64,000 bases of DNA from contig JAUJYZ010001502.1 in the NCBI GenBank assembly GCA_033675265.1, positions 124,001 through 188,000 on the forward strand, in the 5' to 3' direction. Positions 4,786 through 60,720 of the stretch are shown here, piece by piece (position 1 is the stretch's first letter; each line of letters starts with the position of its first letter). The stretch comes from Actinostola sp. cb2023 (Eukaryota > Cnidaria > Anthozoa > Actiniaria > Actinostolidae). The notes under the pieces are model-generated. The model worked only from the letters and a program-made list of their open reading frames with translations. It made no database searches and was not told the origin of the DNA. The position numbers and the translations under genes were made by a program.

Positions 4786-4814
4786 GTAGTAGTAGTAGTA
4801 GTAGTAGTAGTAGT
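4786..4814. repeat. (TAG)n microsatellite
   Basis: About nine TAG units run to the edge of the 16.7-kb transposon. The last bases overlap the gttttg target site. Confidence 0.9.
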
Positions 4815-4818
4815 TTTG

Positions 4819-5274
4819 TATGGTGTTCCATCCCCACCAAAAATCGAAGTTCACATCACAACATCCAACTTGACAATTCAACGTTCAACTTGACACATAA
4901 ACATTGGACACATAACATAAACATCGGACTTACCGAAGATCAACATTGCATTTAAGAAGTTATGTTTCTACTTTACTCGTCAACATTGGTTTTTAGCTAT
5001 CAACTTTCAAAGTAAAACTTTTTAACATCGAACACTGATCAAACGTTAGACCGAGTTTTATGGCCAACATTGCTCTTGCTCGTGTTCCTAGATATCGAAA
5101 TGTCCTTTTTCACCAAAACAATAAACAGTTCCGTGCAACAATGAAGATTAAACTTTGCATGTCGAAGTTGGTTGTTGAGTTGTCAGAACCGCGTACAAAT
5201 CCCGCCAATAATACCAAACCACCTCTTGGGGGAGGGTGTGGGGAGTTTTGTTTTATAGCTTAGTAACCACTCCT
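4819..5274 (+). repeat. Left terminal inverted repeat, 456 bp
   Basis: It matches the complement of 21103-21558 with only scattered differences (for example ccacc/ccgcc near 4835 and cataac/catgac near 4914). The HECT gene start codon lies at 5305, 30 bp beyond its inner edge, so it probably holds that gene's promoter and 5' leader. A 67-codon open frame (5060-5263) is identical in both arms, but I do not treat it as a proven gene. Confidence 0.9.
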
Positions 5275-5304
5275 TGCTTCAGGCCACATGGCATTTTTTT
5301 AAAT

Positions 5305-7358
5305 ATGGCGGACTTATCGGGTATGAATTCGAAAGTTATAAACGCTGAATTAAACGCAGTGAGAAATCAACTACAGCATGCAGGTTGTGTCAAGGTTAGA
5401 CTCCCTTGGAGGTGAGAAATTACATTTTAAATGGCTATTTTTGAATTTAGTTTACAGTGTGGACACTCGAACCGTGAACACTTCAAGTTTTTTTCGAACT
5501 TGTTTTTCGAACTTTTTTTTCCGAACTTTCTGTTGCATCATAGCCTCTCAAATGCAGCATTGAGTTTAAATACACTTAGTGATCAAAACACGGTTCGAGT
5601 GTCCATACTGTAATTAAATCAAGGGTTTTCTTTTCGTAGGATCCCCAACACAATCAACAACTAATCCTACCACACCTTCGACCTCTGTGTCACAATCCGG
5701 TGAGAAATTGCATTTTAATAAAAGTGCTCTTTTTGAATTTAGTTTAATTCTTTGTTTTTGTTTTGCTTTTGTTCTTAGCCTTAGGATCCCAAACACAATC
5801 AAGCACTACTGGACCTTCAGCTAGTGCTGTGAAGCCAGGACCCTTGGGGTTACAGTCTGGGGTAGTGGGAGTAGTAAGATCTAGTCCGCCAGTTTCAGTT
5901 ACAGAACACAGACAGTTATTCTCAAGGTACAATACATCCAACAGGACAAGAAACACCTTTGTGTACAGTGGAAAAGGCAAGGGACCGGCTAAAGGACGAG
6001 TGCCCACATGCACACTGAAGTTTGTGTGTCTTGCAAGAGTTGACACAATCAAACCTCCTGGAACAATTAAAGAACGGACAACCCTTGGAAACGCTGGTCT
6101 CGGCGAAAAAAGCGTTCAGCTTGATGCCAATGCAAACCAAGTCCAATGTCACCAAGAATTAACGAAGCATTTCATTACCAGCAATCCAAGACATTTTACT
6201 CCCGCGTTTTTATGACCAGCGGTCTCCCGGCAGTCCGAAATTCCCCTCGAAATTTCCACCAAAATAAATCAATTTATCAAAATCAAACTACTCTAAATTT
6301 GTTAAGAAATACCAAGCGCTTCTGTTGAGGAGGATAGATTTAAAAATGAAGTGTTCGCTTACGCTCGGCACAGAGTACGAACGAGTCACGTAAGGGACTT
6401 TGAAAATTTCTATATACCACAGGAAACCCAATCTATTAAGTTATTTTGTTTGTACTCCCCCCTCCCCCATTAGGTTCGTGTTCTTGAGCCAGCAATGACT
6501 TTAACAGCAGTGTTTTAAAATGGCGGACGAAGATTTTTTGGAAGGACGAAAATCATGTTGCAAATTGATGTTTATTTGGCGAAATTTGGCCTTTCATGGC
6601 ACCATTCAAACGACCAAAAATAGGACATTTTCACTCAAGTTTTGCCCGCTCCAAACAGCGAAAGAAGTCTCTATAAACTGGCGATTTATAGTCCTGCATA
6701 CACGAAGAAGGGAATAAGAAGACCTGGTTTTTGAATCATACAACGGTTGAGCAGTGGTTTGGGTGTTTTTTGGTTACATACGTCGGTATTTGGCCGGTAT
6801 TTATAGGGAATGTATGGCGGAGTTTGAGGATATTCATCATGGTATTTTGCCCGCTTGAAACCTCGATGGAATCAACAAATATTGACTCGTATGAGTGCAT
6901 CGAAGTTCCCTCAATTGTTTGAGAAGACCTGGAAAGTTCCATGTACATCGTAAGTGAAATTATTTTATTTTTTCTAAAGTCTCCCATACAAAACACTGTA
7001 AACGTCCGTCATTGTTTAAATGCCCTGAAAAGTTATGCATAATGAGATGGCCGCCATCTTGTCCCAGATTCTTGGTAATGTCCCCCAGCTTGCTGAAACT
7101 GGCTACGACGTTCTATTGTATCAAAGAGGTGAGGATGGGGGGTTCTTCAGAATAGAACTACCTTACACGCCAAAACGGCTAAAAGATACAGCATGTAATG
7201 CAAAAATATACCTGCGTCCACTACAGAGAGATTTGATTCTTCAGAAAGTTGATTCTTCTGCCAAAGAAAGTGAGGTGAGCATATTATAAACAAAATGCAG
7301 CACCTGTTGCCATGGTATGAATTTTGTGCATGGATCAATTCCAGCTGTTACCATCCCC

Positions 7359-7402
<44 letters not shown>

Positions 7403-10400
7403 GCTGACCCTCGGGGTTTTTTTTTTTTTTTTTTTCGTGGGACTACAAATTCCCTGCCCCTGGGCCGCCAGAAATAACAAATTCCCCGCCCCCGGGCAAC
7501 GGAAAAGCAACAAACAATTTAATATATTAAAGGCATGTTTAATAATAAAGCTAGACGCATTTTGGAAAGAGTTATGGACCATAACAGTAGAGATAAGAAG
7601 TCATCTGTGCTTATAAAATCATGAAGTGTTTCTTTATACCTTCAAACAAAGCCTTTAACTTTGCAAGACCTCGTTTTTCAAGCCAATCGGCGACAAAAGT
7701 AGTCTCTTTACCGGCGAATTCCATTATTATGAATTTCACCATTGATTATATGCTCGGTCAAGTTATCCCCGCCCCCCACTCCCGGGACAACATGTTGTTG
7801 TACAAAATCCCCGCCCCTGAGACACACGTCCTTACAAATCCCCGGGGTATGCCCGGGGGGGGGGGGGGGGATGGTAACAGCTGGAATTGATCCATGCATT
7901 AATTTAACACTGTTACATTGTACTTTTATGTGGTATATGATATAGTGCTAGCATGTAGAGATAAATAGAAAAAAAATAGAAAAACTAATAATAGTACTTA
8001 AAGGATAAAACTGTTATACAACCAATTTTGTAGTGCACTGCATTATTAAAAAGAAAAATGAAAAAGAAAAGAAAGAAACATGCATTGCGAATAGAAAAAT
8101 TCTTCAAGTGTGAAAGTAGTTGAAAAGCAGTTGATTAATAAGGAATTAATCTTGTATCATTTTACCAGAATGCGTAGTCCAATGTCTTTTGTACATATAT
8201 GCAAAATAATTAGTGCCAATAATATTGTTCTATAGTATTATTCTCAAGAGGGTATAATAATCTGAATAAGAAAGCAAAATCGTAAAGCAATATGGTAGTC
8301 GTAGTAAAATGAAACCATCGTGCAAATGTCCTATTGACAAAGTCACATGGGCTATCATACATGTAGCTGGCACTTTACGCATTTCTTGAATGTGCTTGTT
8401 CTCCAATTTTGTTCCTTTCCTTTAAGGTGGCTTCAGAAGATTCTCCAATAATAAGGTGTTTGACGTGTGGGAAGTATTGTGTAATGACTGACATGGCTGA
8501 GCACATAAATAAGGAGCACACGGAGACCCAAACAGAACCCATCCCCAAAAAGGTATATGGGTTTGCATTTAATAATGCATACTAGTCCAAATGGTCTGAA
8601 TGGTTACTATATATTACATTTGGCTACATGTCTCAATATTCAAACAAGACGCTCATTGAGCGTTCACTCGTGCCCTGCATGCTCGAGAATCCATCGGTGC
8701 TCTTCGGCATGGGCTCGGAAATCGCCCCGCTGGCGGGGCGATGTTTCATCCGAGCCCACGCCGAAGAGCACCGATGGATTCTCGAGCATGTCGTGCCCTG
8801 GTGCAATTGCGTTCTGAAATGAAGTTCATAATGATAGTCCAGTCATCCTATGAAATTTTGGGGGTCAAGTTGGAACAAATTGCAACAGAAAGTTTGTCAT
8901 CGCTATTCAACCAAGATGGGTTACCTAAACAACATACTAAAAGTCCTCAAAAATCCCTTCGGTGGAACATGCCGAAAATTAGGATTAAAGATTTCGTGGT
9001 TTCACCACAGGGATCCCGCGTCGAGCAAAATGAATTATATTAAAAAAATACATTTATCCGACTTTTTTCTCAGATTTTTAATTTCCAAGATCTTCAATAT
9101 TATTTCTGTTGTGGTTGAAGTTACTTTATTAACACAAAAGTACTTGAAATGCAGGGGAAATGTCCCTAGGCCATGACCCTTACCACAGGGATCCCAATAC
9201 GTAGAAAATTGAATTTTCGATCAAAAAGTCGATTTCCTGCTTTATGTTTGATTGTTTCTTGGTTATTTCTTTGCATTGTAAAGCCAAATTGGTCTATTCT
9301 AAGACTGTTTAACACTAATGATTAATAATAATCAACTATTGAAATACAATAATGATAATAATTAAGATATAATGACCATAAGATAAAATATTATACTAAT
9401 CAGAATTAAGATAAGCTTAATACAACCAAAACATATTGTTAGTCAGACTCATCCAAACCAAGGTCTGACGTGCTGGAGTTAGAATAACTTTGGCCTTTGC
9501 ATGTACCACATGCAGCCGAGCAATCCATGTCGAACTTTTTGCACGTACAAGTGCAAGTGCTACCTGATCTGACTTGCAGCCATCTGATCATCTCAATTAG
9601 TATAGTGCGCTATGGGCTTGTGGTAATTCAGTTAGGATAGGAAGTAGCTTCCCATCCGTTAAGTGTCATCCCCAGTCAACAGGCTGTAGATTTTCGCAAG
9701 CTTTCCGATCCTGGATCTGGTAGTACACACGTAGACTGTGGTCAGATTGCATCAACAGCTGAGAGTGGGTGGAAGGCTTTCAGGTTGAACAAATTACGAT
9801 CACTTGGCTACCTTTTGGCAAAGACGGGTGTATCGTAGAGTCTACAATTAGCCTCTCCTATGAACCATCACTGTACAAAGAGAGAAGTACTTTCTCTCCT
9901 GCCACAATGATGTCTTCCTTTGTAGTTACAGTACCCGCTGGTCAAAGATTTCTGCTTTTTGAAGGAATCTGCATGGAATCTGTTTCAATATTTTTAAAGC
10001 TAATGCTTTGCCAATCCCATGGAGCTGTGATGTTGTGTCGCACCCTAGAATTGCATGCAGAAACAATAGGTTTTTGCACACATTGGCACCTAGGGCAGAC
10101 TTTGTCCTCTTTATGTTCCATACTCTCCTGTTCTGTGGCCTTGGCTTGGGCTCTGGCTAGAAGAACAGGCCGTGCGAATCCACTTCAACATGATAACACA
10201 GTACTGAAGACTAACAGGTCGGTATCGTCTCCAACTAGTACACTAGCTTTAGTTTTCATCCTGACATTTTTCCGATTTCTGATATAATTTTTATGAGTTC
10301 ACTGATCTTAATGTGATTTATTATTATTAAAAATATCGTTTTTTATATTTTTTGTTTTTATTGTTAAGCGCTTTAGAATATTACATATTTTGCGCTATAT

Positions 10401-13400
10401 AAATAAAGTTTATTTATTTATTCATTTATTATGTTGAAGTGGATTCGCACGGCCTGTTCTCAACAAAATCGTGCAACTTGTCGCGCAACATTGTTGCGTT
10501 GCAAGTTGCAGAGCAATGTTTCTCGTATTACCATCGTTCGTGCAACTTGTCGCGCAACACACTTCGTGTTGTAGGTTGCAAAATGTTGTTGCGCAAAGTA
10601 GAAGCTCTTTCTACTTCATGCAACAAAGTTTTGCAACCTGCAACTCAGAAAATTTAATTTGTTGCGCGACAAGTTGCGCGAATGATGGTAATACGAGAAA
10701 CATTGCTCTGCAACTTGCAACGCAACAATGTTGCGCGACAAGTTGCATACCGTTTTGTTGCTCGTATTACCGCACCTGTTTTTGCACACACTTTATGCTT
10801 TGCATCAGCTTTAAAAATGATTGAAACAGATTCCATGCAGATTCCTTCAACAAGCAGAAATCTTTGATCGACCAGCGGCTATGACTAGAAAGGAATACAT
10901 TTTTGTGGCAGGAGAGAAAGCACTTCTCTCTTTGTACAGTGATGGTTCATAGGAGAGGCTAATTGCAGACTATCTACGATACACCCGTTTTTGCCAAAAG
11001 GTAGCCAAGTGATCGTAATTTGTTCAACCTGAAAGCCTTCCACTCACATCAGCTACTGCTACATACCACAGTCTACGTGTGTACTACCAGGTCCAGGAAT
11101 GGAAAGAGGTTGCGAACAGCTACAGCCTTTTGACTGGGGATGACACTTAACGGATGGGAAGCTACTTCCTATCCTAACTGAATTACCACAAGCCCATAGC
11201 GCACTATACTAATTGAGATGATCAGATGGCTGCAAGTCAGATCAGGTAGCACTTGCGCAGGTGTACGTGACAGAAGTACGACCTGGATTGCTCGGCTGCA
11301 TGTGGTACATGCAAAGGCCAAAGTTATTCTAACTCCAGCACGCCAGACCTAGCTTGGTTTGGATGAGTCTGACTAACAATATGTTTTAGTTGTATTAAGC
11401 TTTAAATCTTAATTCTGCTTGGTATAATATTTTATCTTATGGTCATTATCATAATTATTATGTGACTTTATTATTACTTAAGTTATAAATATAACCTTAA
11501 TGCAACCAATTAGAGTCGTTTTCGTATGAGTGGGAAGTAGTTACGGTACGGTTGGTGCAGTGATAATATCGCGCCATCAACGTGCAGTGTGATTGGTTGA
11601 ATACAATGTGTTCGATTCTGTACCGTGAGCGTAACTCCGTACCGTAGGTTTCCCACTCATACGAAAACGACTCTATTATCATTATTGTATTTCAATAGTT
11701 GATTAATATTAGTCATTAGTGTTAAACAGTCTTAGAATAAACTAATTTGGCTATACAACGCAACAAATAACCAAGAAACAATCAAACATAAAGCAGGAAA
11801 TCGATTTTTTGATTGAAAATTATATTTTCTACATATTGGGATCCCTGTGTTAAGGGCCATGGCCTAGGGACATTTCCCCTGCATTTCAAGTACTTTTGTG
11901 TTAATAAAGTAACTTCAACCACAACAGAAATAATATTGAAGATCTTGGAAATTAAAAATCTAAGAAAAAAGTCGGATAAATGTATTTTTTTAATATAATT
12001 TATTTTGCTCGACGCGGGATCCCTGTGGTGAAACCACGAAATCTTTAATCCTAATTTTCGGCATGTTCCACCGAAGGGATTTTTGAGGACTTTTAGTATG
12101 TTGTTTAGGTAATCCATCTTGGTTGAATAGCGATGAGAAACTTTCTGTTGCAATTTGTTCCAACCTAAACCGTAGAATGACTGGACTATGAGAGACTCAT
12201 GGGCACCAACATAAACCACAGGTAGCCCAAGCTCACTGTTTGTGGCTATTTACTAGAGATATATGTGACTAAACGAAACATGGAATAAAATCGTTGAATC
12301 TTAATAAAATCCAATAAGACTTACATGGTGTCTTCTTTATATACTTGGTTATCCTCCTGCTGAGTTACAGCGAATTTCGTTAAGGTTTAGTTGCTTTTCC
12401 CTTGCCACTCATAAACAAGAGCGAACTATTTGACCCGTTTGAGCATAGAATTACTTCAGTACGTGTATAGTGCTATTGAAGCCTTTGTAAGCTTTTAAAA
12501 ATATCATAAACGAAAACAAACGATGGAAGTTATCAGTCAGAACCATCTGACCCGATGCAACCTCAAGACGTACCGAATACGTCTGATTGGAGATGTTTAT
12601 CTATGACACCGACAAACTAGTCTCCCTCGTCACGCAAATGTCATTGTCATTGTCATAACGTTTGGTATGGCCGGCCTGTGGACCAATATTCAGTATTCCG
12701 AGCTATAGACTAGCCTGCGGAGGAGGCTAACTTTCGGAACTTTACAGTATATCAGTAAAAACGTTAATAGCCCGACTTCACGCTACTAGAGCGTCTTGTT
12801 TCAATCTAAATATAGACGAGAATATATTTAGATGTTTGCCCCTTGACCTCAGGTGCTTCCCCTGATTGGTTTGTGCTTTGTAATCTTTCTTGTGGGTTAG
12901 CGAAGAAAGAGGTCGTCGTGTTGAGATGCGTGTGGTCTCGTTCCCAGTCCCACTCGATTGCAGATTCATGACTCCGATGAAGAAGAAAAAAATACCAACT
13001 GTAATTATAGACTCGGCCCGGCCTTAGGCCTGGGCCCGAGTAATAACTACAACATTATTTAAGAACCCTTTATCTCCAGTGCAGACATTCCTAGATTTGT
13101 CACATGCTTATTACTAGGGAACTAAGCAATATGATGTGACAAGCTAAGGAACATCTGCAAAGGAGGCTTAAAAAGTGCCTTTGAAAAAAAGATAACTAAT
13201 AGTGTCAGTGTTTAAACATTTCAGAGCAAAACATTACTTAATTCTATCTACTTTTAATTTGTTTTAGCGACAAGCTGACAAACAGCTCATCTTAGATGAT
13301 TTAGTAGACAGGTAAGTGGAAATATGTTTACACCTAATTCAAAAAAGGTTGTCGTATGAGAGATCTTAAGACCACGCAACTGGACCGCAAAGGAGTATGG

Positions 13401-15346
13401 GTAGTACCAAAACACCACTCTCTTTACATAGACAACAGCTTTGGTAGTGATTTCAGCATCAATACATTATGTTCTTTAGTGTATACGGTCATGATCAGGG
13501 CAAGCTAAATTTGAATTATCGTGTGTATATTTGTGTGATTTTATAACATAAGTCATTTCTTCCCATGACTCCTTTCGAGTGAGTTGCATAGGCTTGAGGC
13601 AAGGTTGATTAGTTATATCTTCACCCCAACAGCAAAAAAAATCTGAAAAATGTTAATTGTGGGATTGATATAATTTCTGTTCTCAAAAGTGATGTTGGAG
13701 GAAAGCAAAGGAAGACATCCTGTGATGGACCAACTAAAGATGAGCAGATTAATTACCTCAAAGAAATGTTTCCTGAGTGGGAGGAGGAATCATTGGAAAA
13801 GTTATTGTACATTAATGGATCTCCAGATGCAGTGGCCCTTTTAATATCAACCCAAGACAGACCACAAGAAACTGCAACACAAGAAACTTGTGATGAAGAA
13901 CTCCCCGAAACTGATGATGAAGATGACATGATGCATTCACCCTTTGCTGTTCCTGTAACATTGCAATCATTACTTCGTGAGGTACGACACAACCTTACCA
14001 CGGAAAAGGTCAAACTTAAAGTGGATCAAGAAGATTTGTTAAACGATGCCATGGCTTTTTATAAAGATCCAGATTTTAATCCAAAGAATAAGCTCAGGGT
14101 CATTTTTAATAAACAGCCAGCTGCAGATACAGGAGGAGTTACGCGACAGTTCTTTACACAGTTACTAAGCATGATGTCGACTGAGTTTTTCCAGGGAGAT
14201 AAATACAAACAACCAATTTATAATGCTAACATGATAGCATGTAGCATTATGAAACTATGTGGCACAATTGTTGTTCACAGCATTCTCCTTGGTGGTCCTG
14301 GTTTGCCAATCTTTAGTGCAGGAGTCTATCATTACCTTGCTACAGGAGACATAGATACAGCAGTTGAGAAAATGACCATCGATGACTGCTCTCTTCATGT
14401 AAAGTCCTTCATTAGTATGGTAAACAATTGACATTTCTTTTTTTATTGATTAGTAGTAACCTTTTTCAAATACACATATATTTGCATTTTTGAATCCAAG
14501 GCATCTAGACTCCCCTTCATACCTCCGGTTTTGAGTTTTGCAGCAGGCTTGAAATAAATTTTATATGAAAGATATGTTTGCCCCCTCCTAGTACCCCTTT
14601 TTAAACATGCTCTTTCCTTTTCTATTTAAATGTAAGATCGCAGAAGCACCTGATGTGACTACAGTGGATAAAGAATTGGTAATACAGATGTTATCAGATT
14701 GTGGACTTACCGTTAGTTTGACAGTAAGTAAGATTTGTTGATAGAAAAGACAGTGATACATCTATCTATGACTTATTCCAGGTTATGTTGTTTCTTCTTT
14801 CGTACACTCTATTTTACTTATACAGCTATCTTTGTCCTTCATCAGAATGGCACCAAAATGGAGATCATCCATAGTATAATTGTTCACGATGCCTTCAGCA
14901 GACCAAAAATATTATTGGATCAATTTCGAGAAGGCCTGAGTACATTAGGCTTTGCAAAGCAAGTTCAGAAACACCCAGACATCTTCAAGCCATTATTTGT
15001 ACAAGATAATGCAAGTGTTAGTTATGTTGATGTAGCGAGGTCTCTCCGCTTTCCTTCTACCATGGAAGAAAATGAAGCTTCCACACGTAATCTCTTAAAG
15101 GAGTTTCTTAAGCAGGCTAGTAATGAAACCCTGAGTAACTTCCTAATTTTCACAACTGGAGCTCCATGCCTACCAAACTTTGGGCTTGGACAAATAGAAG
15201 TTAAGTTTGATAATATTGATTCAATCTTTGCTTCTACATGTTTGCAAAGGGTGACCTTGCCCAATCAATTTCCAGATCAAGGCACATTTTTCACAGTTAT
15301 GGATTCAGTACTTAACACTTTTGCCAAATCTTTTACCAATGTTTGA
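5305..15346 (+). CDS. HECT-type E3 ubiquitin ligase, G2E3-like, transposon cargo
   Basis: HECT ligases accept ubiquitin on a cysteine and pass it to a substrate lysine. Exons read from splice signals: about 5305-5383 (phase-compatible donor; alternative donor 5411), 5640-5699, 5785 to about 6170, about 7040-7274, 8427-8552, 13268-13311, 13690-14419, 14637-14723 and 14846-15346 (stop TGA). The exon at 8427 encodes a zinc finger (CLTCGKYC...HINKEH). The exon at 13690 begins with a possible CUE-like helix pair (DEQINYLKEMFPEWEEE), an acidic linker, then the HECT N-lobe (PAADTGGVTRQFF). The last exon holds the catalytic site STCLQRVTLP, with the cysteine codon at 15239-15241. Phases agree from 7035 to the stop. 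The donor after the exon at 5785 could not be found, so this join may be broken. Family members are multi-copy G2E3-like genes in fish and cnidarians. Confidence 0.8.
6215..7034. other. Intron sequence of the HECT gene
   Basis: No exon is recognisable between the TGA that ends the open frame at 6213 and the exon near 7040. Short open frames here look like chance. Confidence 0.5.
7327..7898. mobile_element. MITE with long poly-C and poly-T tracts
   Basis: Terminal inverted repeats of about 32 bp begin tgcatggatcaattccagct at 7327 and end at 7898. The left repeat runs into about 40 C (7359-7400), soon followed by 19 T (7417-7435), and the right one is preceded by a G run. It sits in an intron of the HECT gene. 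The homopolymers are prone to sequencing error. Confidence 0.8.
7899..8426. other. Intron sequence, nothing recognised
   Basis: AT-rich intron of the HECT gene. No gene or repeat structure seen before the acceptor at 8425-8426. Confidence 0.5.
8678..8790. mobile_element. 113-bp GC-rich hairpin insertion with 10-bp target duplication
   Basis: The arms starting catgctcgagaatccatcgg pair almost perfectly with the segment ending at 8790, leaving a 2-base loop and one 5-base bulge. tcgtgccctg flanks it on both sides (8668-8677 and 8791-8800). A 9-10-bp duplication suggests mobilisation by a Mutator-like transposase. The copy of the host repeat near 22270 lacks the hairpin. Confidence 0.75.
8834..12189. 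mobile_element. 3.36-kb palindromic (fold-back) element
   Basis: The left arm (from atagtccagtcat at 8834 to about 10010) matches the complement of the right arm (about 10795 to 12189) with moderate divergence and small indels. Matching blocks include 8868-9300/11730-12170, 9430-9660/11140-11370 and 9760-10000/10800-11040. The arms exceed 1.1 kb. Open frames within the arms are mirror translations, not genes. It lies in the HECT gene intron between exons 8427-8552 and 13268-13311. Confidence 0.85.
10436..10757. repeat. Nested palindrome rich in gttgcgcgacaagttgc units
   Basis: In the centre of the large palindrome, 10467-10548 folds on 10667-10757. The unit gcaacttgtcgcgcaaca and its complement occur several times, and agaacaggccgtgcgaatcc near 10165 is inverted near 10460. 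This is hairpins within hairpins, without coding sense. Confidence 0.7.
12190..13267. other. Intron with dispersed repeat fragments
   Basis: No gene. 12530-12660 is a diverged direct copy of 21815-21920 (shared tagtctccctcgtcac). 12712-12731 carries a solo end of the agcctcctccgcaggc family, and 12773-13040 shares ends with the repeat at 4254-4766. Confidence 0.55.
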
Positions 15347-15376
15347 TAATATCCAGCTTTAAATACCTTTATTTAA

Positions 15377-15762
15377 AGTGCCCATGAAACGAAAATGTCG
15401 ATCCTTGTTTTATTTTACATTATTGTTGTTTGGTCTTTCTCTGAACATTTGCTGTATTTAACATCGACTTTGAGCGTGCGCAAAATGTGCGACAAGAGAT
15501 TGGGCCCTTGACAATGGCTCGATGACGTCAAGAGGTTGTTCATGCCTTTGTTTGCACAACTCCTGACGTCACATTTCTATAGTTTGACCGAGCGGGAATT
15601 GTCGCACTTTGAAACCCAAAATGCCCAACTTCGTGCGCGAAATAAAAAATGTTCCCGTAGCTCAATTCACTTTTTATTAACGCCATGTAAACAAGCAAAT
15701 AGTAAACTTTCGTAGTAACAAATAAAAACGGGGTCTGTTTTTTCTCTCGTTTCATAGGCACT
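15377..15762. mobile_element. 386-bp MITE with TTAA target sites
   Basis: AGTGCCCATGAAACG at the left and its near complement at the right are bounded by TTAA (15373-15376 and 15763-15766). It lies in the 3' untranslated region of the HECT gene. TTAA suggests mobilisation by a piggyBac- or Kolobok-type transposase. Confidence 0.75.
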
Positions 15763-16244
15763 TTAATCCTGGAAAAAGGATGAGAGGATATAGTAAAAAA
15801 TTGCAAACATTTTTACACTTAGCATTCTATAAGTTGTTCATGTTGGTGCTGAAGTTTGTTCAGAAGTACTAAAAATTTAGTTGATGTGTCCATTTGAATG
15901 CAAGTGGTTTATAGTTAGTTTTTGTTGGGGATTTATTTCTTCAAAGTATGTCTACATAAGCAGCCATTTATAAGTGGTTTTGTTAAATAAGGATTAACCT
16001 GAATAGTTTCAGTGGCATATTCAAAAGGCATGTGAATCCATTTTATTGTTCCTGTTCAATTTTGTGAAGATATGTAATCTTTGAGAAAATTGTCAGTACC
16101 ATACTTTATTTCTGGTATCATATCATTGTAGCAGTATTATTGTTCCTTCCTGTTTACAATGTAGTTTTAGGGAAACCTGTAGTTAAATTTGATTAAAATA
16201 ACTAATATTTTTCATGATTATGTAGTTAATTATGATCAGACATA

Positions 16245-16250
16245 AATAAA
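16245..16250 (+). terminator. Candidate poly(A) signal of the HECT gene
   Basis: AATAAA lies about 900 bp after the stop codon, of which about 390 bp is the inserted MITE. Confidence 0.5.
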
Positions 16251-16268
16251 GCATACAGTATCTATACT

Positions 16269-16892
16269 TTAGAGATTGTTTGTGTGTAGAATTATTCATT
16301 ATTTGAAGATAAACATAGTTTCTTCTACACGATCTTGAAGTTTAATGGACTCCGAGCTTTAGGGTCAATTGACCCATCATCAGGGAAATAGTGGAATGCT
16401 TCATTATCACGAGTACAAAACAACAAATTACAATGGTAAGAATGCGCGAGCTACAACGGACTATATCCACACACAATGCATACATGTATGCGCAATCGAA
16501 ATAACATAGAGTACCAATTACAATAATAAAAACTAATCAAAGATAACAAAAAACTCCAGTATAAAGATGGATATGAATTATGAATGATTGGGTAGATGAA
16601 CGAATGAATAAATGAATGAATGAAAATAAATAAAGAAGGAAAATGGAAACCAAAATAATGAGATCATTCATAATTCCAGAGTTTTTTGTTATCTTTGATT
16701 AGTTTTTATTATTGTAATTGGTACTCTATGTTATTTCGATTGCGCATGTATGCATTGTGTGTGGATATAGTCCGTTGTAGCTCGCGCATTCTTACCGTTG
16801 TAATTTGTTGTTTGTACTCGTGATAATGAAGCATTCCACTATTTCCCTGATGATGGGTCAATTGACACGAAAGCTCGGAGTCCATTAAACTT
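16269..16892. mobile_element. 624-bp fold-back insertion with 13-bp target duplication
   Basis: cagtatctatact occurs at 16256-16268 and again at 16893-16905. Between them, arms 16338-16561 and 16677-16891 are near-perfect complements around an AT-rich spacer with gaat repeats. It sits exactly between the 3' ends of the two convergent transposon genes. Confidence 0.8.
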
Positions 16893-16921
16893 CAGTATCT
16901 ATACTGTTTTGTTTTTCTTTG

Positions 16922-19900
16922 CTAATTTTGAATATCAAGAAGATGGAACACATTTTGAATGACATGATGAAATTGCTCAAAAGCATCAGCAATGGAGGCA
17001 CTTGACAAATTCATTCCAGCTAATGTCTGGATTTGTTGGCTATCTAGCGGACATCTGGTTTCTGGTACCTCAACATCCGTAGCAGGTGATGATGGAACAG
17101 GCCCTTCCCAGTCAATGCCATAGGTTGAGTCATCCTAGTGGACATGGGATGAAAGAATTAAAAGAAAGTTCAAAGATTACAAAATCATACAAACTCCTCT
17201 GCTTTCCATTTTTTTAAATAATACTGCTATTTTGCACCATTTACTAATACTTTTTCATGGGTTAAGTGCAATCAGTCACAAATAGAAATTAAAGGTGAAT
17301 GAATAATACTACACTCATATTCTGGAGTACTGTCATTTTAACTGTGAAAAGCTCAAACCAACATAGAACAGACCCAAGCAGAAATATGTCTATAAAAAGT
17401 ACTCACTAGCTGATCACTGGACTACATTTACTTACAGCTGTAATTAATGTATGGTCCATTATATAGAGAGGTTTAACTGCATCACATTTTCAAAAATCAT
17501 GATTACCTGAAATACTTCTCTGCTAATCACAGAATTGCTTCCCCACACTCTGTTTAGTCCCCTTATCCATAATTGCATGGGTGTAGAGTTTCTTTCAGAT
17601 CTTAGGGGGTGGTGGACCCAAGCATTCCGCCAATTTGTCAAATGCCTATTAATAACAGGCAAAAACACATAATGCAAACACCAGAGGTGGATGTCATTAT
17701 TTGGATCCAGCACACCACATTGCTCCATTTGATAAAATGCATTATAAAACAAACTGATGCATCCATTAAATACATCTCTCCAGAGTCTTTCAATTCTCTG
17801 ATTGTGAGTGCTCTTGCCTAAAAGAAAGCAGAATAGTTTGATCCAAATTGACATGATACAGGTACAGTATAGAATCAGTAATCTCAGACATCGACACAGT
17901 CACAGTGTATATTAATTAAATTTGACAGTTCTTCCACTTCACTAAAGGAGTTGCAAGAGATCCACTCAGTTTTATTACATGTATGCACAATACTGGCTGG
18001 TTTTGATTCTGGCAGACTAATTAACAATAATATTAGACTACGAGTTCGAGTTTTCTAGGAATAAAGTTGACTATTTGACTCATAGAAAACGAGGACGAGT
18101 AGTCTAATATTATTGTTTTAGTAGAAACACACTAGTTGGTCAAATTAAGAAAGAAAATTGAATTTTTCGACTTTCCGACATTGTTTTGATGTTCAAAACC
18201 GGCAGTTTTCGCTACTAGTGGTCTATCACTAATAGACCAAGAGTAGCTCAGCCAATCAAATTGCAGGATCAGGGGCGGATCCAGGTTTTTTTTAAACAGG
18301 GGGTTGTGTTATCTGAGTGAGCGGCAGCAAAGCCGCGAACTACTAGGGGGGTTTGGGGGCATGCCCCCCCAGAAAATTTTGAAATCTACAAGCTCTGAAA
18401 TGCAATTTTTAGAGATCTGGAGTTGTTTTATTACAGTAACACAACAAAACTCAATTTTCAGTAAAATTGTGAGTTTATTGGACATCCAACAAAGATGCTT
18501 GGAAGTGTCTTCTTGGGTGAGCTAGTATAGTGTGTAAAACTAAGTTTCGAAAAGCGAAGAAATATAAAAAGCACCTTCAAGTTAGTAAACAATCTCAGTT
18601 CGTACATTCTCAGCGCTGTGCACGTGTTCCACTTGTGACGTCACATCACGTGACTTTACGAAAACAACCCGAACAGTCGAATCACTTTTTGGCTGATTTT
18701 TTCGAGTTAGAGATAACTATTGGCAACATTTTCTCGATTTCAACAACAAGTGTAGTCCATAGGGGGGGTTGCAACCCCCAGAACCCTCCCCCTGGATCCG
18801 CCCCTGAGGATTTGTGATAGACCACTAGTGTGTTTCTACTAATATAAATATAGTAGATAATTGGACAGTTATAATGTCATACAAAAGTGGTATTATCTAC
18901 CTGTGATCATGCTCCCTCTAATGGGACCTCTCTGTGGATGTGAAAGCATGTGCCAGGCTACATCAACATTCTCTCCTCCCTTGTCAGACCTTACACGAGA
19001 GGGCAATCCAAAATCATTTACTGCACCAAGAAACAAGTTTAAAACAGTTGATGCCTTGTTATTGTCTGAAGCATGCAGATACACCGGAATTCTTGAAAAC
19101 CCATCTATACCTCCATGGACAACTATTCTCCATCTGCAAAAGAAATACATGTATTATAGCAAGGACAACAACACAAAGCTCAAAATTGTGACAACTGTTA
19201 GTGTATAATCTGCATACTTTTTGTCTCACAATTCTACAATTAGCACTTAGATAACAAATAGGATAAGAGAATTCTCCTGTATTGATTGGATGATCACTCA
19301 TTCAAATGTGTGCATGCATATACAAATGTATCTGGTCATACTTTTGGGCTTTGCACTGTAAAGTAATGGCACAAACGTTTTCAGTAATACAGTGTACAGC
19401 AATGTATACAACCAGTATGAAAGGCTTTATAATTCAATTTGTTCCTTTACTACCGGTAGCTAACAAGGTAGGAATAAATTAATAATGTTGAATATTATGT
19501 ATAATGTACCACAGTATGTTCCAGAAGATTGCAAGGACTTGTGTTACCTTATCAGTTTATGGTGTCCATCAATATGCCAAAGGGAAAGAGGAGAATGAAC
19601 ATTATACTTCCTGCGTTGAACTGCCTCTTTGAACCTTTGCATCATGCCAAGAGGATCTGTTCGCAATAGTGACTGCCTTATCCGCTCTCTTTGAACACGA
19701 TGTCCTTTGCTTTTTAAAAAACCTTTCATGATCCGGATACCAATATTTGGGTGACTTTGCTGTGCAGACGTCACTAATCCATCCAAATCACCATCATTAA
19801 TTTTACTGTAAGTTCCTAGAAGTATTGTAAATATAACATTACATTATATAACTAGAATAATTATTATAAGCTTCTGCATGTCTTTACTACATGGGAGAAA

Positions 19901-21080
19901 ATATGTTGTGTTTTTCATTCATTTATATTATTATACATGTATGTTGTTCGACTTGTCACAATTAATTGACAGCAACTTGATGAGTTACAGAGAGGGACTG
20001 GGATTTTGTGGTCATTACTAACTGGTTCAGTCCAAATGCCCTTCTCTCCCGGGGAGGGGACTCCCTTATAAAAGGGGGTAGGGATGCTCATCGGAAATTT
20101 TGAAAATGACCCGTAAAAGGGACTGGAGTCTTGTCTTGGTGGGCGTGGCAGCGAATATTTTTACCCCTAAAAGGGACCAATTTAAAAAGTCATTTTAATA
20201 GTATAAAAGATACTAGCATCAAACGCCTTCCACTCTTACAAGTTTAAGACAACGTTGTGACACAATACAGAGCGATGTTATTAAAAGGAAGTTTTAAAAT
20301 ATTGCTGTTGATTGAATACCCTAAAAGGGACCAGAAAACTCTATTGGTGGCCATTTTTATTTCTGACACCCTAAGTGGGACCAAAACACGAAAAAATAAA
20401 AATAAAAGGGACGACGAGCATCCCCACCACTTTGGAATCGGAGTCCCCCCCCCCCCCTCCCCGGGCCTTCTCTATTATAAACCTGAAGAGAAAAGACGTA
20501 CCATTATATATATTAATTATATATTTTATATTATTTATTATAGTGTCCCCAATTAGTTGTATAAACTAAATACATTGACACTGAAATAAAGTCATTATTA
20601 TTTATTATTATTATTAACTTATAAAAGCTTTCAGTAACTGTTGTCTATACAGCCATACATACCTGCAACTTTAAGATTATACTCCGACATTCTTCTCTCT
20701 ACAGTACGCTGTCCCACACCTAACATTGTACTGATGTCCGGAACAGTAAATCCTTGCTCCAATAAATACGATAATTGTTCGTGAGGAATTATGAATGCTG
20801 GTCTTCCGCGGCGACCAGTAATATCGAGACTCGCTTTATATCCGTTCCCAAATGCTGTAGAATTAGAATGATTCGCTTCAATCATCTTTGTAGTTTCGTA
20901 CAACGAAAGCATTGTATTAACTATGTCGTCCGGAACATTCAAATTTACAAGCATTCTATTAATCAGATCTAATCTCAATATAATCGACCCAACCTCGGAG
21001 GGCTCTTCCAGGCCATCTATCTTCGCGACGACATCATTAATAGCAGATATTACACTCTGTAACTCAGTGTCGTCCGCCAT
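16922..21080 (-). CDS. IS3EU-like DDE transposase (integrase fold), 480 aa
   Basis: Five exons on the minus strand with GT-AG borders and consistent phases: 21080-20663, 19815-19548, 19133-18901, 17817-17507 and 17134-16922 (stop TAG). Residues 89-93 (RRGRP) resemble an AT-hook. Residues 98-135 form a helix-turn-helix ([20 protein letters not shown], then RTVERR). The integrase core has Asp222 (WHIDGHH), Asp279 (RSDKGGE) and Glu316 (QRIERLW), with 36 residues between the last two, as in IS3/retroviral-type DDE enzymes. The acidic 70-residue tail is unlike known domains to me. The start codon lies 22 bp inside the right terminal repeat. No frameshift or stop breaks the frame, so the enzyme may be active. 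It would bind the 456-bp ends and move the whole unit. Similar integrase-core proteins occur in many aquatic animals. Confidence 0.88.
18024..18116. repeat. Short hairpin
   Basis: aacaataatattagactacg pairs with its complement ending near 18116. It lies in a transposase-gene intron, next to another MITE. Confidence 0.6.
18118..18842. mobile_element. MITE with ttagtagaaacacactagt ends
   Basis: Inverted ends at 18118-18140 and 18818-18842 bound a unit inside the third intron of the transposase gene. It contains a second element. Confidence 0.65.
18270..18806. mobile_element. 537-bp nested MITE with caggggcggatccagg ends
   Basis: CAGGGGCGGATCCAGG and its complement bound the unit, with aggat on both sides (18265-18269 and 18807-18811). 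Ends of this type are very common in invertebrates and are usually assigned to hAT. The 5-bp flank is shorter than the 8 bp normal for hAT. Confidence 0.75.
20040..20473. mobile_element. MITE with G-rich inverted ends
   Basis: ccttctctcccggggagggg at the left and the complementary G/C-rich end near 20473 bound about 430 bp with repeated aaagggacca units. It lies in the first intron of the transposase gene (20662-19816). The rest of that intron shows nothing recognisable. Confidence 0.6.
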
Positions 21081-21102
21081 TTTGATATTTTTGATATATT
21101 GC

Positions 21103-21558
21103 AGGAGTGGTTACTAAGCTATAAAACAAAACTCCCCACACCCTCCCCCAAGAGGTGGTTTGGTATTATTGGCGGGATTTGTACGCGGTTCTGACAACTC
21201 AACAACCAACTTCGACATGCAAAGTTTAATCTTCATTGTTGCACGGAACTGTTTATTGTTTTGGTGAAAAAGGACATTTCGATATCTAGGAACACGAGCA
21301 AGAGCAATGTTGGCCATAAAACTCGGTCTAACGTTTGATCAGTGTTCGATGTTAAAAAGTTTTACTTTGAAAGTTGATAGCTAAAAACCAATGTTGACGA
21401 GTAAAGTAGAAACATAACTTCTTAAATGCAATGTTGATCTTCGGTAAGTCCGATGTTTATGTCATGTGTCCAATGTTTATGTGTCAAGTTGAACGTTGAA
21501 TTGTCAAGTTGGATGTTGTGATGTGAACTTCGATTTTTGGCGGGGATGGAACACCATA
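21103..21558 (-). repeat. Right terminal inverted repeat, 456 bp
   Basis: Inverted match of 4819-5274, ending ...CCATA next to gttttg. It lies directly upstream of the transposase start codon (21080) and is probably its promoter. Confidence 0.9.
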
Positions 21559-21564
21559 GTTTTG

Positions 21565-22555: not shown

Positions 22556-22560
22556 TTGGA

Positions 22561-23021
22561 CCACAGGTAGCCCAAACGTAGAATCAGTGGACCGTGACGT
22601 CATTGAATATTCGTTTGACCGTCGGATTTTCGAATGGATTCAGGAATGAGCTCTTAGAAAGACTTCAAAGGATATGAGATTCTGAAACATGTCTTCATAG
22701 CAGTAGTCTGATAATTAAAGAACACTTTGGTGTAGAAATCTGAGCAAGAAATTGTGGTTTTGAGTGGTTTTGAGCGATTCGAAAATTTACCCGTTTCTAG
22801 CAAATCGCTCAAAACCACTCAAAAACACAATTTCTTGCTCAGATTTCTACACCAAAGTGTTCTTTAATTATCAGACTACTGCTATGAAGACATGTTTCAG
22901 AATCTCATATCCTTTGAAGTCTTTCTAAGAGCTCATTCCTGAATCCATTCGAAAATCCAACGGTCAAACGAATATTCAATGACGTCACGGTCCACTGATT
23001 CTACGTTTGGGCTACCTGTGG
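22561..23021. mobile_element. 461-bp near-perfect fold-back element, TTGGA duplication
   Basis: ccacaggtagcccaaacg starts the left arm and its complement ends the right arm. The arms are over 210 bp and almost identical around a short loop near 22785. ttgga flanks both sides (22556-22560 and 23022-23026). A solo arm of the same family lies at 52725-52950. Confidence 0.85.
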
Positions 23022-23568
23022 TTGGACTGCCTGTGGTCTTGTATAACACAGGAAGCCCAAGTTATAGTTTCCAGTCCCTCTCGTGTGATAGCAGGGTTGG
23101 CCTCCCCGAAGATTGCTAGGTTCTGTCTCTTTCAGTAAGCATGGGTTTCGAGAAGGTAGGATTTCAGAGTTGTGTGAATTAAACTGTATCTTTCTCCTTG
23201 AAAAGCACTCCAACTTCCCTTCAAAAGACCTCATATACATAAAATAAAGTTTATTATTATTATAACACATACATACATTGTTCTACTTTCGTAATTTGAG
23301 AGATTCTATCTAAATAATGATGGTCTAAAAGTAGCCGTTCTGTACCACTCACATGGTCAACGTGGTCATGCGAGAATATACTTTATAGGCTTACTTTATG
23401 AAGAATCAAAGGTTGTTATATAATAAGGATTCAAACCAATACTCATCCATTCTTTGTGTGAAATGCACCCAGTTGACGAAGCGGCTAATCTATCTATCTA
23501 CTACATGTGCCTTACATTATCTATCTATCTAGACGGTTTCATCTAGACTATCTACAGTATCTACATGT

Positions 23569-25586: not shown

Positions 25587-25889
25587 TACCTACCTACCTA
25601 CCTACCTACCTACCTACCTACCTACCTACCTACCTACCTACCTACCTACCTACCTACCTACCTACCTACCTACCTACCTACCTACCTACCTACCTACCTA
25701 CCTACCTACCTACCTACCTACCTACCTACCTACCTACCTACCTACCTACCTACCTACCTACCTACCTACCTACCTACCTACCTACCTACCTACCTACCTA
25801 CCTACCTACCTACCTACCTACCTACCTACCTACCTACCTACCTACCTACCTACCTACCTACCTACCTACCTACCTACCTACCTACCTAC
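25587..25889. repeat. (TACC)n microsatellite, about 75 units
   Basis: 303 bp of essentially perfect TACC repeats. The repeated Tyr-Leu-Pro-Thr reading is an artefact of the array. Confidence 0.95.
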
Positions 25890-33600: not shown

Positions 33601-36600
33601 GGGTGACCATAAGTGGTGTATGCAGGTATCTAGCTAAGTATGGGTGACCATAAGTGGTGTATGCAGGTATCTAGCTAAGTATGGGTTACCATAAGTGGTG
33701 TATGCAGGTATCTACCTAAGTATGGGTGACCATAAGTGGTGTATGCAGGTATCTAGCTAAGTATGGGTGACCATAAGTGGTGTATGCAGGTATCTAGCTA
33801 AGTATGGGTGACCATAAGTGGTGTATGCAGGTATCTAGCTAAGTATGGGTGACCATAAGTGGTGTATGCAGGTATCTAGCTAAGTATGGGTGACCATAAG
33901 CGGTGTATGCAGGTATCTAGCTAAGTATGGGTGACCATAAGTGGTGTATGCAGGTATCTAGCTAAGTATGGGTGACCATAAGTGATGTATGCAGGTATCT
34001 AGCTAAGTATGGGTGACCATAAGTGTGGTGTATGCAGGTATCTAGCTAAGTATGGGTGACCATAAGTGGTGTATGCAGGTATCTAGCTAAGTATGGGTGA
34101 CCATAAGTGGTGTATGCAGGTATCTAGCTAAGTATGGGTGACCATAAGTGATGTATGCAGGTATCTAGCTAAGTATGGGTTAAACAATGACCATAAGTGG
34201 TGTATGCAGGTATCTAGCTAAGTGTGTGACCATAAACAATGACCATAAGTGGGGTATGCAGGTATCTAGCTAAGTGTGGAATAAACAATGACCATAAGTG
34301 GTGTATGCAGGTATCTAGCTAAGTATGGGTTAAACTCATCACCAATAGATGAGCTTGGAGGTAGGGGCCAATAGGGTGGGGATGCCAAGACCTACAACTG
34401 GCTACTCAGTTACCATGGCAACCCCTGACCTACAAGCTAGCAATGCAAGGTTACCATGGCAACCCTGTCACAGCCCACCACCAACCCATCCTCCAAGGTG
34501 CTTGGAGAAGGAGGGTCTGTGAGAGGAGAGCACAGGTAACCTCCACCCCAAACACCCCAAGCACCATCATCCCCACACACAAGTTAAGCAACTGACATAC
34601 ATACCCAGGTCGCCGCACCCACTTAGGCCAGCTGAAGTGACAAGTTGGCCAAAGCTTCTGTAGGTGTTCTTATGTACAATTGATAAGCATTGCTTTTCCA
34701 TCGACCCAAGGTTTGAATGAGGTGATCTGGGATACCATTGCGTGCGGCCACTGTTGCAGCGCCAATGCGAAAACTGTGACTCGAGTAATTGCCAGGGATT
34801 CCTGCAGCATCTAAAATTTGACGAAGCTGGCTAGTAAGAAGGGTTCGTGTCAAAGGCTGCCCATCGTTTAGTAAGAAGAGGGGACCAGGTCCATTCCCTC
34901 TAGATGATAAGTAAGTCATCATAGCCTGCACAGCACACATGGGGTATTTACCCAAACCAATGTGAATGCAGCACCCTTTGCGAAATGGGTCAGTTTTTGA
35001 AGCCTTGATTGTGATCCTCATGCTGGATGGTGAGGTGAGGGAATCCACTGCCACATCTTTTGGCTCCAAATGAATAGCTTGGGAAAAACTTGCCAAGTTT
35101 GGTACAGTGAATTCGGCAGATCGGAGGAAGCCGAAGTAGGCAAGGGTACAAGCGGCCCAGAACATGCAATGATCTGGAAGACCCAAGTCCAATGATCTGC
35201 AGATGACCATCATGATTTCGTCGGTGATGGGAAGGCGTTGATACGAAGAACAGCCTTGTGTGCGTTTGATCCCTCGCACGACTCTCTGAAGTTGTAGGCA
35301 ATTGAGTAGAGGGTCCGGCAAACCCTGCTCAATGTGGAGGGACCTCACAGCTGACAGATAGACTTTGATGGTTGAATGCCGAACAGATTCAGCCAAGGAC
35401 GTGGCAAAGAGACAAAGGGTCCATTCCTCAGCTGGACATGGTGAGCCATTAGGGTGAACTTTTCCAAGTTGAAGACAAAAGTTAATAAATTTGTTTTTTG
35501 CAGAGGCATAGGTCTTGCGGGTTGACAATGCAAGGCCTTCAGAGAGGAAGTTCTGGCAACGTAGTTCTAATCGGGTACGATTAGCTCCTCCAGCAGCTGC
35601 ATGGGAATCGAGGCTGGGGTGCACCTGGCTTTGGGAACCAACTGCCAGAATACCTGCCAATGGAAGCGAGAAAGAGCATCAGCCACCTTATTTTGTATGC
35701 CTGGAATGTGTTGGGCAGAGAATGTAAAATTGAACTGGGCTGCTGCCATGAGAAGGCTGCGAACCAGACGCATGATGCCGGGTACCCGTGACGTCCTGGA
35801 CAACAAAATAAAAACGACCGCCTCATTATCCGAGCGAAACAAGACATGTTGTCGGGCCCACGTATGGCCCCATACATGAGCAGCTATTACTACCGGGAAG
35901 AGTTCCTTGTAGGCAATAGAGTACTGAAGCTGACAGGGGGACCATCGGCCATTGAACCAATCTCCATTGTAGTAAGCACCATAGCCCACTGCACCAGCAG
36001 CATCAGACGTTACTTCCAGGTCTGTTGTAGCGGCCATACCTGGGAACAACCAAAAGCGAACACCATGCCAATCCAAGAGGTACTGCTTCCACCATTGGAG
36101 ATCCAGATGAAACTCCTTGTTCAAACGAATAGGATGGTCCTTCTTTCGGAAGCAACAAAGTAAGTCGATCATGCGCCGTACAAACGAGCGACCAGGCCAG
36201 ACCACTTTTGACGCGTGATGTAAGTGGCCAATTAAGGATTCTAATTGTCGCCTATCGCACCAACAACGCGACACCCAGGAATCGATAAGATGACGTAAGG
36301 CACACAGTTTGTCTGAAGGGAGCCGAGCTATAAAATTTACCGAGTCTAGCTCGATACCTAAAACTGTCAAGGTAGAGCAAGGGCCCTCACACTTTTTCGG
36401 ATGGAGTGGAAGACCTAACCTTTTACACACTTGTAGCGCAATATTTAGATTTTGGAGGCATTGTTCAGAATCGGGAGGCCCAGCCAAAATAAAATCATCT
36501 AAATAGTGGACCAAATCAGAGACATTGTAATTGTGCTGTAAGATCCATTCTACCATGGTCGCTACTGAATTAAAAATGAATGGAGCTGAACGTAGACCAA

Positions 36601-39600
36601 AAGGGAGAGTCAGATCCACATAATATTGGTTACGCCATCTCATGCCTAGTAAATAACGGTCGGAGGGATGTACAGCAATGTTCCGGTAAGCCGCCTCCAC
36701 GTCAAACTTGGCCATTAGAGCCCCTTGGCCATACTGACTAACCATGCTTATGATCTGATCGATCCTAATGTACTGCAGCGAAAAATCCGCTGGATCGATG
36801 CCGTCGTTCACGCTTCCACCCCCCGGGGAGGATAAGTCTAGAATTAGCCGCCATTTCCCAGGTTGACCTTTTTTTGGAATTACACCAAAACTGCTAATAT
36901 GTAGGTTAGGCATCGGAGGAAAGGAGAAGGGGCCCGCAACTCTACGCAAAGACACCTCATTAGATAGGTACTCATCAATCACATGGGGATACTGGTAGGC
37001 TGACGGTTTGTTTTTCTTGGCTGACTGAAGTTGGTGAAAATTCTGAAAGCCCAGTTTAAAGCCATGCCGCAGGCCATCCACCACAAAAGACACTTGCAGC
37101 TGATCAGGGTGGTTGGACAGTTCATGCACAAAGCAATCCGCAATTAAAGGAGAGATCTGGCCAACGGGAGGGAGGGCGCAATATGCTGAAAATAGATAGA
37201 AATTAACAAGAACATCTACCACTGCAGGAATATGTAATAGTTCAAATAAAAACTTTATTGACGGCTGTCCTAAACACAATCCATTGTGCAGCTCGCCTGA
37301 ACAGTAACAAATGGTACTACTGGTAGCAACACTCCATCGGAGATCATCTATATGATGGAGAAAGGCACAAGAAATATAAAACATGCGCCTACTTAGCGAC
37401 CGTAAAAAAAAAACAAAAAAAAAACAATCCTGACAACATAAGCAAGCTAAAACAGGCCTGTGCAATTAAAGTCAAAATAATGTCAAAACTTCAAATGTCA
37501 TTCAATGAAGTGTCACTTCCTGCGCTTATGACTCCTGCTCTCTGGCGCCGGGGACCGCGACTTGTGCCTTGCAGAGGAGTTGGAACAGTCCAAAGCCCTG
37601 TGCGAAGCCGCACAATTGCTGCATTTGTGAGCAAAACGACACTTCTCGTATGGCGATGAGCAATGGCCTCTATTCCAGGATCGGCACACGACTTGCGAAT
37701 TGCTGGAAACCGACGCTTCTGCATTTGAATCCGACGATAGACTGCTCGGCAGTGTTCGCACCGATGACCCAGCTGTGTGAAAATTGTACAGCTGCACGTT
37801 CATTACCGACCAATCGGTAAGCTTCGTAGCGGCTGCATGTTCGCGATAGGCTTAATCGTACGCCAGCCAGGCTCGGCCGCTAAACTGTCGATAAGTGCGC
37901 AAGATCAGCAGCTTGTATTGCAATAAATCAAGAGCACGATTGGGGAAATACTTGGTCAGGACTAGCGAGAAAACTGAAAACGCTTCCATCCACGTAACGA
38001 TGTCATCTATACGGTGAAGGCGTCTCTTCGGCGTTGTTGTTAACATAAGCCGCCCATCAAGTAGAAGCTGTGGCTCAGGCTCGTTTAATGCTAGATTTGC
38101 GGCCAGTAGATCGCTTAACTCGAGATATTTGCCCGCTACAACCACCGCTACAAGCTTCGCCGGGATGGGAGAAAAACCAGGGCCGACAACGAAGGAATTT
38201 TGAGATGAGGGCGTTGGGACCACAGGAATGGCTGGAATGTAGCCCGTTGACGCGGGATTTGTAGATAGAGACTCTATACTTGCTGTAGTGGTGGCTATCG
38301 AAGGCAATGGAGCCGCAAATGTACTCACAAATGACGGTACAACAAATGTGGACATACCTGATGCGTTGGGTGAGACTTCCACACCAGTGCCCGAGGACAA
38401 TAACCCTGACGCCACAGATGAAAGTTCGCCAGCCGCTTGATTAGATCCTTGTAGTGCTTGTGGTCCTTGTGTGTTTGGCGATGCGGTTGAAATTGCTTGG
38501 GAAGCACTTGGGGCCGTAGATGAGGGCTGCTCGGCCGCCAATGCCGATCTAACGGCCTGAACGACCATGGCCAGGAATTCTGGTGACGGTTGCGGGTCGG
38601 GCAACGCAGGACGCGCCGTTGATTCCACTGTCGTTGGCAACAGAGCGCTGTCGCGACTATTTCTCGTTTGTCTCGACATGACAAAGAGAATAACGATATA
38701 TAACAAGAGGCCAAGGAGCAATAATCCACAATAGCGATGAGAAGTGGTAACAAGCTGATCCGCGACGATCAGCACAATACACAGCAATAAAGCAAGGCAA
38801 TGATCCGCGACGATCAGCAAGAATGCAATGCGCAACTAATGAACACATGTGAACCCAGTGACAACCCCTGGGCCACCCCACACTTCCAGTGAGACTGAAC
38901 CGCTGGCCAGCATTGATTCAAGTTTAACTATGCCTAAATTGCATTTAGCCACAATTTAAACAATGACCATAAGTGGTGTATGCAGGGGTGTAATTAAAGT
39001 AAACAATGACCATGAGTGGTGTATGCAGGTATCTAGCTAAGTATGGGTTAACAATGACCATAAGTGGTGTATGCAGGGGTGTAATTAAAGTAAACAATGA
39101 CCATAAGTGGTGTATGCAGGTATCTAGCTAAGTATGGGTTAAACAATGACCATAAGTGGTGTATGCAGGTATCTAGCTAAGTATGGGTTAAACAATGACC
39201 ATAAGTGGTGTATGCAGGGGTGTAATTAAAGTAAACAATGACCATGAGTGGTGTATACAGGGGTCTAGCTAAGTATGAGTTAACAATCACCATAAGTGGT
39301 GTATGCAGGGGTGTAATTAAAGTAAACAATGACCATGAGTGGTGTATGCAGGGGTCTAGCTAAGTATGGGTACTAAACAATGACCATACAGTAAGTGGTG
39401 TATACAGGGGTCTAGCTAAGTATGGGTTAACTAACAATCACCATATTAAGTGGTGTATACAGGGGTCTAGCTAAGTATGGGTTAACAATCACCATAAGTG
39501 GTTTATACAGGGATCTAGCTAAGTATGGGTTAACAATCACCATAAGTGGTGTATGCAGGGGTGTAATTAAAGTAAACAATGACCATGAGTGGTGTATACA

Positions 39601-60201: not shown

Positions 60202-60548
60202 GGAGTTTTGCTTTGAAGTCTTTCAGCTTTCCTACTCCGTCTAGACATTCTTTGAAGTCGTCAAATATGGACTGTTCATTGACACTGTTGATCATGATTT
60301 TTAAGACTCCTAAATCCTCACAGGTTTGACGACCAAGTATTGGACGTGCCTTCTCCTACACGACAACGAAACATGTTGTGCGACTTTTGTCTTGATAGCA
60401 AAGTTCAACATCAAATTCACCGACAACACTCAATGGCTTCTCTGATCCATATGCAAACAATCTTCTGTCTGTTTTCCTCGATTTACATACAATTCTTCCT
60501 TGTTTGAGCTCTTCCCAGGTGTCCCTGCAAACTATATTACATGTCGAT

Positions 60549-60678
60549 TGTAGTAAAGTGAACCGAGATACGATGGATTAAACAAACTTTAATCTGAAAC
60601 CAAGTACGGCAACAAAACATGGCCGCTCCGGGAAGCACGAGGGAAAGCTGGCCCGTGACTAGGGCCCAGGTTACTACA
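60549..60678 (-). repeat. 3' LTR of gypsy element B, 130 bp
   Basis: TGTAGTAAAG...TTACTACA on the plus strand. The adjoining minus-strand purine tract gggtggaggga lies at 60679-60690. It marks the point where B entered element A. Confidence 0.7.
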
Positions 60679-60720
60679 TCCCTCCACCCTAGTTTAACAA
60701 AACGTAACAATAAACAAATG

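Follow-up and report, generated by a model that had tools for sequence, protein, structure and literature searches.

A 16.7-kb IS3EU-type transposon from Actinostola with a predicted HECT ubiquitin ligase gene convergent to its transposase

In a 64-kb stretch of DNA from Actinostola sp. cb2023, referred to here as the window, a pair of long inverted repeats encloses a transposase gene and, convergent to it, a gene resembling those of HECT ubiquitin ligases. The arrangement raises the question of whether the ligase gene belongs to a transposon or is a host gene that was captured by one. The element occupies positions 4819-21558, a length of 16,740 bp without its target site duplications. Its inverted ends (4819-5274 and 21103-21558) are identical at 454 of 456 bases, and it is flanked by a duplicated 6-bp sequence, GTTTTG, at 4813-4818 and 21559-21564. 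The preliminary description of this locus had reported 456-bp inverted ends, a perfect duplication on both sides and two genes lying strictly inside the ends, and the coordinates confirmed all of these. The features of the element, in window positions, are as follows:

4813..4818, no strand: target site duplication GTTTTG, left copy
4819..5274, plus: left terminal inverted repeat, 456 bp, 5' TATGG, with AACATTG four times
5305..5383, plus: HECT exon 1, start codon 30 bases from the inner edge of the terminal repeat; 3' boundary inferred
5779..6147, plus: HECT exon 2, with the limits of the public prediction P0001; relatives align as far as about 6173
6173..7080, no strand: stretch of about 0.9 kb within the HECT coding sequence, which it splits; perfect inverted repeats of 8 bp (CATTACCA/TGGTAATG) at its ends
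7033..7274, plus: HECT exon 3, with the limits given by P0001; relatives align from about 7081
8427..8552, plus: HECT exon 4, C-x2-C-x11-H-x4-H zinc finger, omitted by P0001
about 8855..12178, no strand: foldback-type stretch of 3.3 kb in an intron of the HECT gene, with 84-96% similarity between its main segments
13268..13311, plus: HECT exon 5
13690..14419, plus: HECT exon 6, CUE domain and HECT N-lobe
14637..14723, plus: HECT exon 7
14846..15346, plus: HECT exon 8, C-lobe with STCLQRVTLP, Phe at -4, stop
about 16331..16899, no strand: foldback-type stretch between the convergent genes
16922..17134, minus: transposase exon 5
17507..17817, minus: transposase exon 4, catalytic E316
18901..19133, minus: transposase exon 3, catalytic D279
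19548..19815, minus: transposase exon 2, catalytic D222
20663..21080, minus: transposase exon 1, start codon 22 bases from the inner edge of the terminal repeat; weak helix-turn-helix match
21103..21558, minus: right terminal inverted repeat, 456 bp, 3' CCATA
21559..21564, no strand: target site duplication GTTTTG, right copy

Passages of PMC10045372 and PMC12730594 characterize IS3EU elements by TA..TA ends, terminal inverted repeats and a 6-bp duplication, and passages of the former describe IS3EU transposases as having a DDE core without an upstream HHCC and a first D situated 100-300 residues from the N-terminus. The Actinostola termini, TATGG..CCATA, have the TA..TA form and agree with the TAYGG..CCRTA of the fungal families, GTTTTG has the usual length for the target site duplication, and the DDE core has no upstream HHCC and begins at D222. 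Because the ends, the duplication and the type of transposase fit the features published in these passages, the earlier designation of the element as IS3EU-like was upheld, and its sequence supports classification as an IS3EU-type cut-and-paste DNA transposon. The 7-mer AACATTG that occurs four times in the left terminal repeat is a weak signal, as it was equally frequent in 40 of 1000 shuffles; a looser motif, picked after inspection, has 5 matches in the terminal repeat and was equalled in none of 1000 shuffles.

The remainder of the window contains other repeats and frames resembling those of mobile elements. About 1 kb beyond the right end of the element there is a foldback at 22560-23022, with 220-nt arms that are 99% complementary and 23 nt apart, and positions 25587-25889 are a perfect TACC array of 75.8 copies. 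On the minus strand at 34626-37465 a tyrosine-recombinase frame (Phage_integrase, 7.8e-8) adjoins a reverse transcriptase frame (RVT_1, 3e-17), which together we take to be DIRS/Ngaro-type retrotransposon-like; an additional open frame lies at 37852-38835. Polyprotein frames at 58445-63546, also on the minus strand, are presumably Ty3/gypsy-like and include an open one of 941 codons with RT, RNase H, H2C2 and integrase core. Two 183-codon frames with identical translation lie 1,525 bp apart on the minus strand (53144-53695 and 54669-55220) and are likely a recent duplication; the one of the pair that was tested gave no Pfam match.

The transposase, described beforehand as an intact five-exon DDE protein, proved to be just that: five exons on the minus strand, joined across GT/AG introns, encode 480 amino acids with no stop, and the product matches the Pfam integrase core rva_4 at 2e-82. 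The catalytic triad is D222-D279-E316, with spacings of 56 and 36 residues. A helix-turn-helix match in exon 1 is weak and under the Pfam cut-off, and no H2C2-type domain was found in the Pfam scan. Relatives of the transposase were considered for the best 120 of 3425 matches, and alignment of the exons with relatives spans most of exon length. The top match among those listed is P0017, with 57% identity across 98% of the query, and by E-value the best matches bearing names are from Dendronephthya (P0018, 67% over 77%), Porites, Paramuricea and Acropora. Viral contigs yielded no relative of the transposase. The search of prokaryotic genome contigs yielded a single one, a transposase with an rva_4 core (1.8e-67) at 1135-2158 of a 4.2-kb contig, L001, assigned to the genome bin of a sponge's bacterial symbiont. 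This contig is probably sponge DNA; its transposase adjoins frames that, by reading of their translation, resemble retrotransposon polymerase, and no HECT gene was seen within its short length.

The gene on the plus strand is predicted to encode a divergent CUE-HECT ubiquitin ligase that has a zinc finger besides these two domains. HECT E3 ligases are marked by a catalytic Cys motif and by Phe at position -4. The C-lobe read from exon 8 contains STCLQRVTLP and terminates in SFTNV, which places Phe at -4 by sequence reading rather than by structural alignment, and the HECT domain clears its Pfam cut-off (34.2 bits against 23.9). A predicted structure for the exon encoding the CUE domain and N-lobe, built from 27 sequences (mean pLDDT 73), revealed a HECT N-lobe fold, a result of moderate confidence that concerns this one exon; the prediction for P0001 drew on 16 sequences and was set aside for its poor quality (mean pLDDT 51). 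The exon at 8427-8552 encodes the zinc finger C-x2-C-x11-H-x4-H and matches P0002 weakly (E 0.025) with all four zinc ligands present. Assignment of this finger to the UBZ type was dropped, since a Pfam match above cut-off was absent. P0001, from the same Actinostola sp. cb2023, aligned to the window in six segments of 91-100% identity that jointly cover residues 20-695, with mismatches at segment edges, where the splice choices of P0001 fall; it is most likely the protein prediction for this very locus. No HECT relatives were found in viral contigs or prokaryotic genome contigs. The convergent multi-exon ligase gene with zinc finger and catalytic Cys of the preliminary description was in this way recovered exon by exon.

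That description had also taken the ligase gene to be intact, a reading we reject. The coding sequence is split by the stretch of about 0.9 kb at 6173-7080, which has stops in all three frames, and the pieces to the left of about 6173 and to the right of about 7081 align to adjacent residues in relatives. Eleven relatives were compared, of which P0002 and P0003 are uninformative on the left side of the interruption; in all nine informative ones (P0150-P0158) the coding segment is continuous. The ends of the stretch match at 17 of 25 bases, a level that 2 of 20,000 random pairs drawn from its interior attained. The stretch looks like a later insertion in the HECT gene. Weak splice-site pairs that would keep the frame exist around it, and P0001 uses one of them, so an altered ligase product is possible. 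This copy of the element may consequently be a source of transposase alone; were the insertion spliced out, it might yield an altered ligase.

The strongest sign that the ligase belongs to the element is the symmetry of the two start codons. The ATG of the HECT gene lies 30 bases from the inner edge of the left terminal repeat and that of the transposase lies 22 bases from the inner edge of the right one. With both start codons this near to a repeat, the ligase appears to be a second gene native to the element rather than a host gene captured by chance. The two near-identical terminal repeats would then probably serve as matched promoters for both genes. The two genes have a start, ATGGCGGAC, in common; the window contains it six times where 0.16 would be expected, a count that is little informative as four of the six lie elsewhere. 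We consider it probable that the locus represents a single IS3EU-type transposon copy whose two genes converge, both of them starting beside a matched terminal-repeat promoter. In such an element the transposase would bind the terminal repeats and insert the element at staggered cuts of 6 bp. Going by precedent, the most likely part of the ligase would be to ubiquitinate the transposase, or a host protein of silencing or DNA repair, and help the element to spread; the preliminary description had likewise proposed that it may act on host defence or on the transposase. The ligase had been called cargo of the transposon; its position and its start beside the terminal repeat agree with this, on the basis of a single copy.

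The principal alternative is that an ordinary IS3EU element captured a host HECT gene once, as a one-off passenger with no role. It would account for the presence of introns in the HECT gene, for a ligase frame that is already interrupted, and for a pairing with the transposase that was seen in one copy of the element. It is also consistent with the matches from the same organism: among those listed, Actinostola is represented by one HECT relative, P0001, against three further transposase relatives in the best 120 of 3425 (P0029, 68% over 63%; P0037; P0102), so related transposons there may lack the ligase. The short L001 contig, in which a transposase relative has no HECT gene beside it, likewise weighs against the two-gene reading. 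However, a single capture would have to place the start of the HECT gene at a distance from the terminal repeat that mirrors that of the transposase and its end within 1,575 bases of the transposase stop, and such placement would be rare for captured host genes. We regard this explanation as unlikely. A good deal less credible is that the ligase gene is part of a different mobile element nested in the IS3EU element. There are many nested repeats within the transposon, but, terminal repeats aside, none of the 14 inverted pairs of at least 60 nt brackets the HECT gene, and all of those within the element are confined to one HECT intron or to the intergenic gap. That a pair of solo terminal repeats, or of small elements, flanks a host gene and a transposase by chance would fit the commonness of terminal-repeat-only derivatives among DNA transposons, but it is close to refuted by the 6-bp duplication at the outer ends, by repeats whose ends coincide to the base and whose sequences match at 454 of 456 positions, and by the uninterrupted transposase between them.

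If the probable reading, a two-gene transposon with matched promoters, is extended beyond this copy, the CUE-HECT ligase would be the regular second gene of an animal branch of IS3EU, acting against host silencing or tuning transposition, and some of the orphan "G2E3-like" families of corals and fish would be its relics or domesticated descendants. We hold this wider proposal tentatively, and with more doubt than belief. The name G2E3-like, applied in the preliminary description to large HECT gene families of fish and cnidarians, goes back to an annotator's label on one entry, P0003 from Acropora muricata ("G2/M phase-specific E3 ubiquitin-protein ligase-like"), which is 52% identical across 38% of the query. 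PHD-type zinc fingers are a defining feature of G2E3, and Pfam scans detected no PHD match in the joined query of 569 aa, in P0001 or in the windows for exons 2, 3 and 4, scans that a diverged finger could escape. Fish-named HECT proteins were likewise absent among the minority bearing names in the lists of at least 16 and at least 26 HECT matches. A passage of PMC5638112 mentions an unclassified repeat of Cottus fish that matches G2E3, which fits the idea of transposon-derived G2E3-like families and does not demonstrate it. The suggestion that such families were spread by, or descend from, these transposons is a conjecture that has as its sole links the label of P0003 and this remark.

Should the pairing recur, the enlarged HECT gene families of corals and fish might have their source in it. 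If other copies carry the ligase, IS3EU-type transposons may exploit the host ubiquitin system, and its presence in further copies of an animal IS3EU element would suggest that the superfamily repeatedly recruits host-modifying enzymes. Recurrence would also supply a concrete case for the role of the ubiquitin pathway in transposition that was proposed in a passage of PMC2836005 by the authors of Ginger1. Like the Actinostola element, Ginger1 as described there links an integrase-like DDE transposase to ubiquitin-pathway domains (OTU, Ulp1), but these ubiquitin/SUMO protease domains are within the transposase, whereas the Actinostola element has a separate ligase gene. Ginger1 elements further have an integrase zinc finger and duplications of 4 bp (CCGG/CCGT), neither of which is seen in the Actinostola element, with its 6-bp GTTTTG and no H2C2 match in the Pfam scan.

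Compared with solved HECT E3 ligases, the predicted protein shares the N-lobe fold, the Cys motif and Phe at -4. The nearest solved structure by sequence is AREL1 (E 0.13) and the nearest by fold are WWP2, Smurf2 and HUWE1, with 14-21% identity in the top ten Foldseek rows. The Actinostola ligase differs from them in having a CUE domain and a zinc finger ahead of HECT, and in its location in a transposon. Among the papers listed from the open full-text literature, none was seen to describe a DNA transposon that contains a HECT ligase, and passages of the two papers there that name both HECT domains and DNA transposons report no such element; a record may exist in Repbase or in subscription papers.

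The closest resemblance is to the fungal IS3EU families described in passages of PMC10045372 and PMC12730594, which share with the Actinostola element the ends, the inverted repeats, the 6-bp duplication and a DDE core without HHCC. Neither "HECT" nor "ubiquitin" occurs in the texts of these two papers. Accessory enzymes are known for fungal IS3EU elements from passages of PMC12730594, and in both fungal and Actinostola elements a further enzyme gene is opposite to the transposase in orientation; in the TET/JBP-carrying fungal elements this is the alpha-kinase gene. The enzymes themselves differ: the fungal families carry an alpha-kinase and TET/JBP, the latter thought in that source to undo silencing marks, whereas the Actinostola element carries the CUE-HECT ligase. 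A ligase gene beside the transposase is thus a new twist on a known plan.
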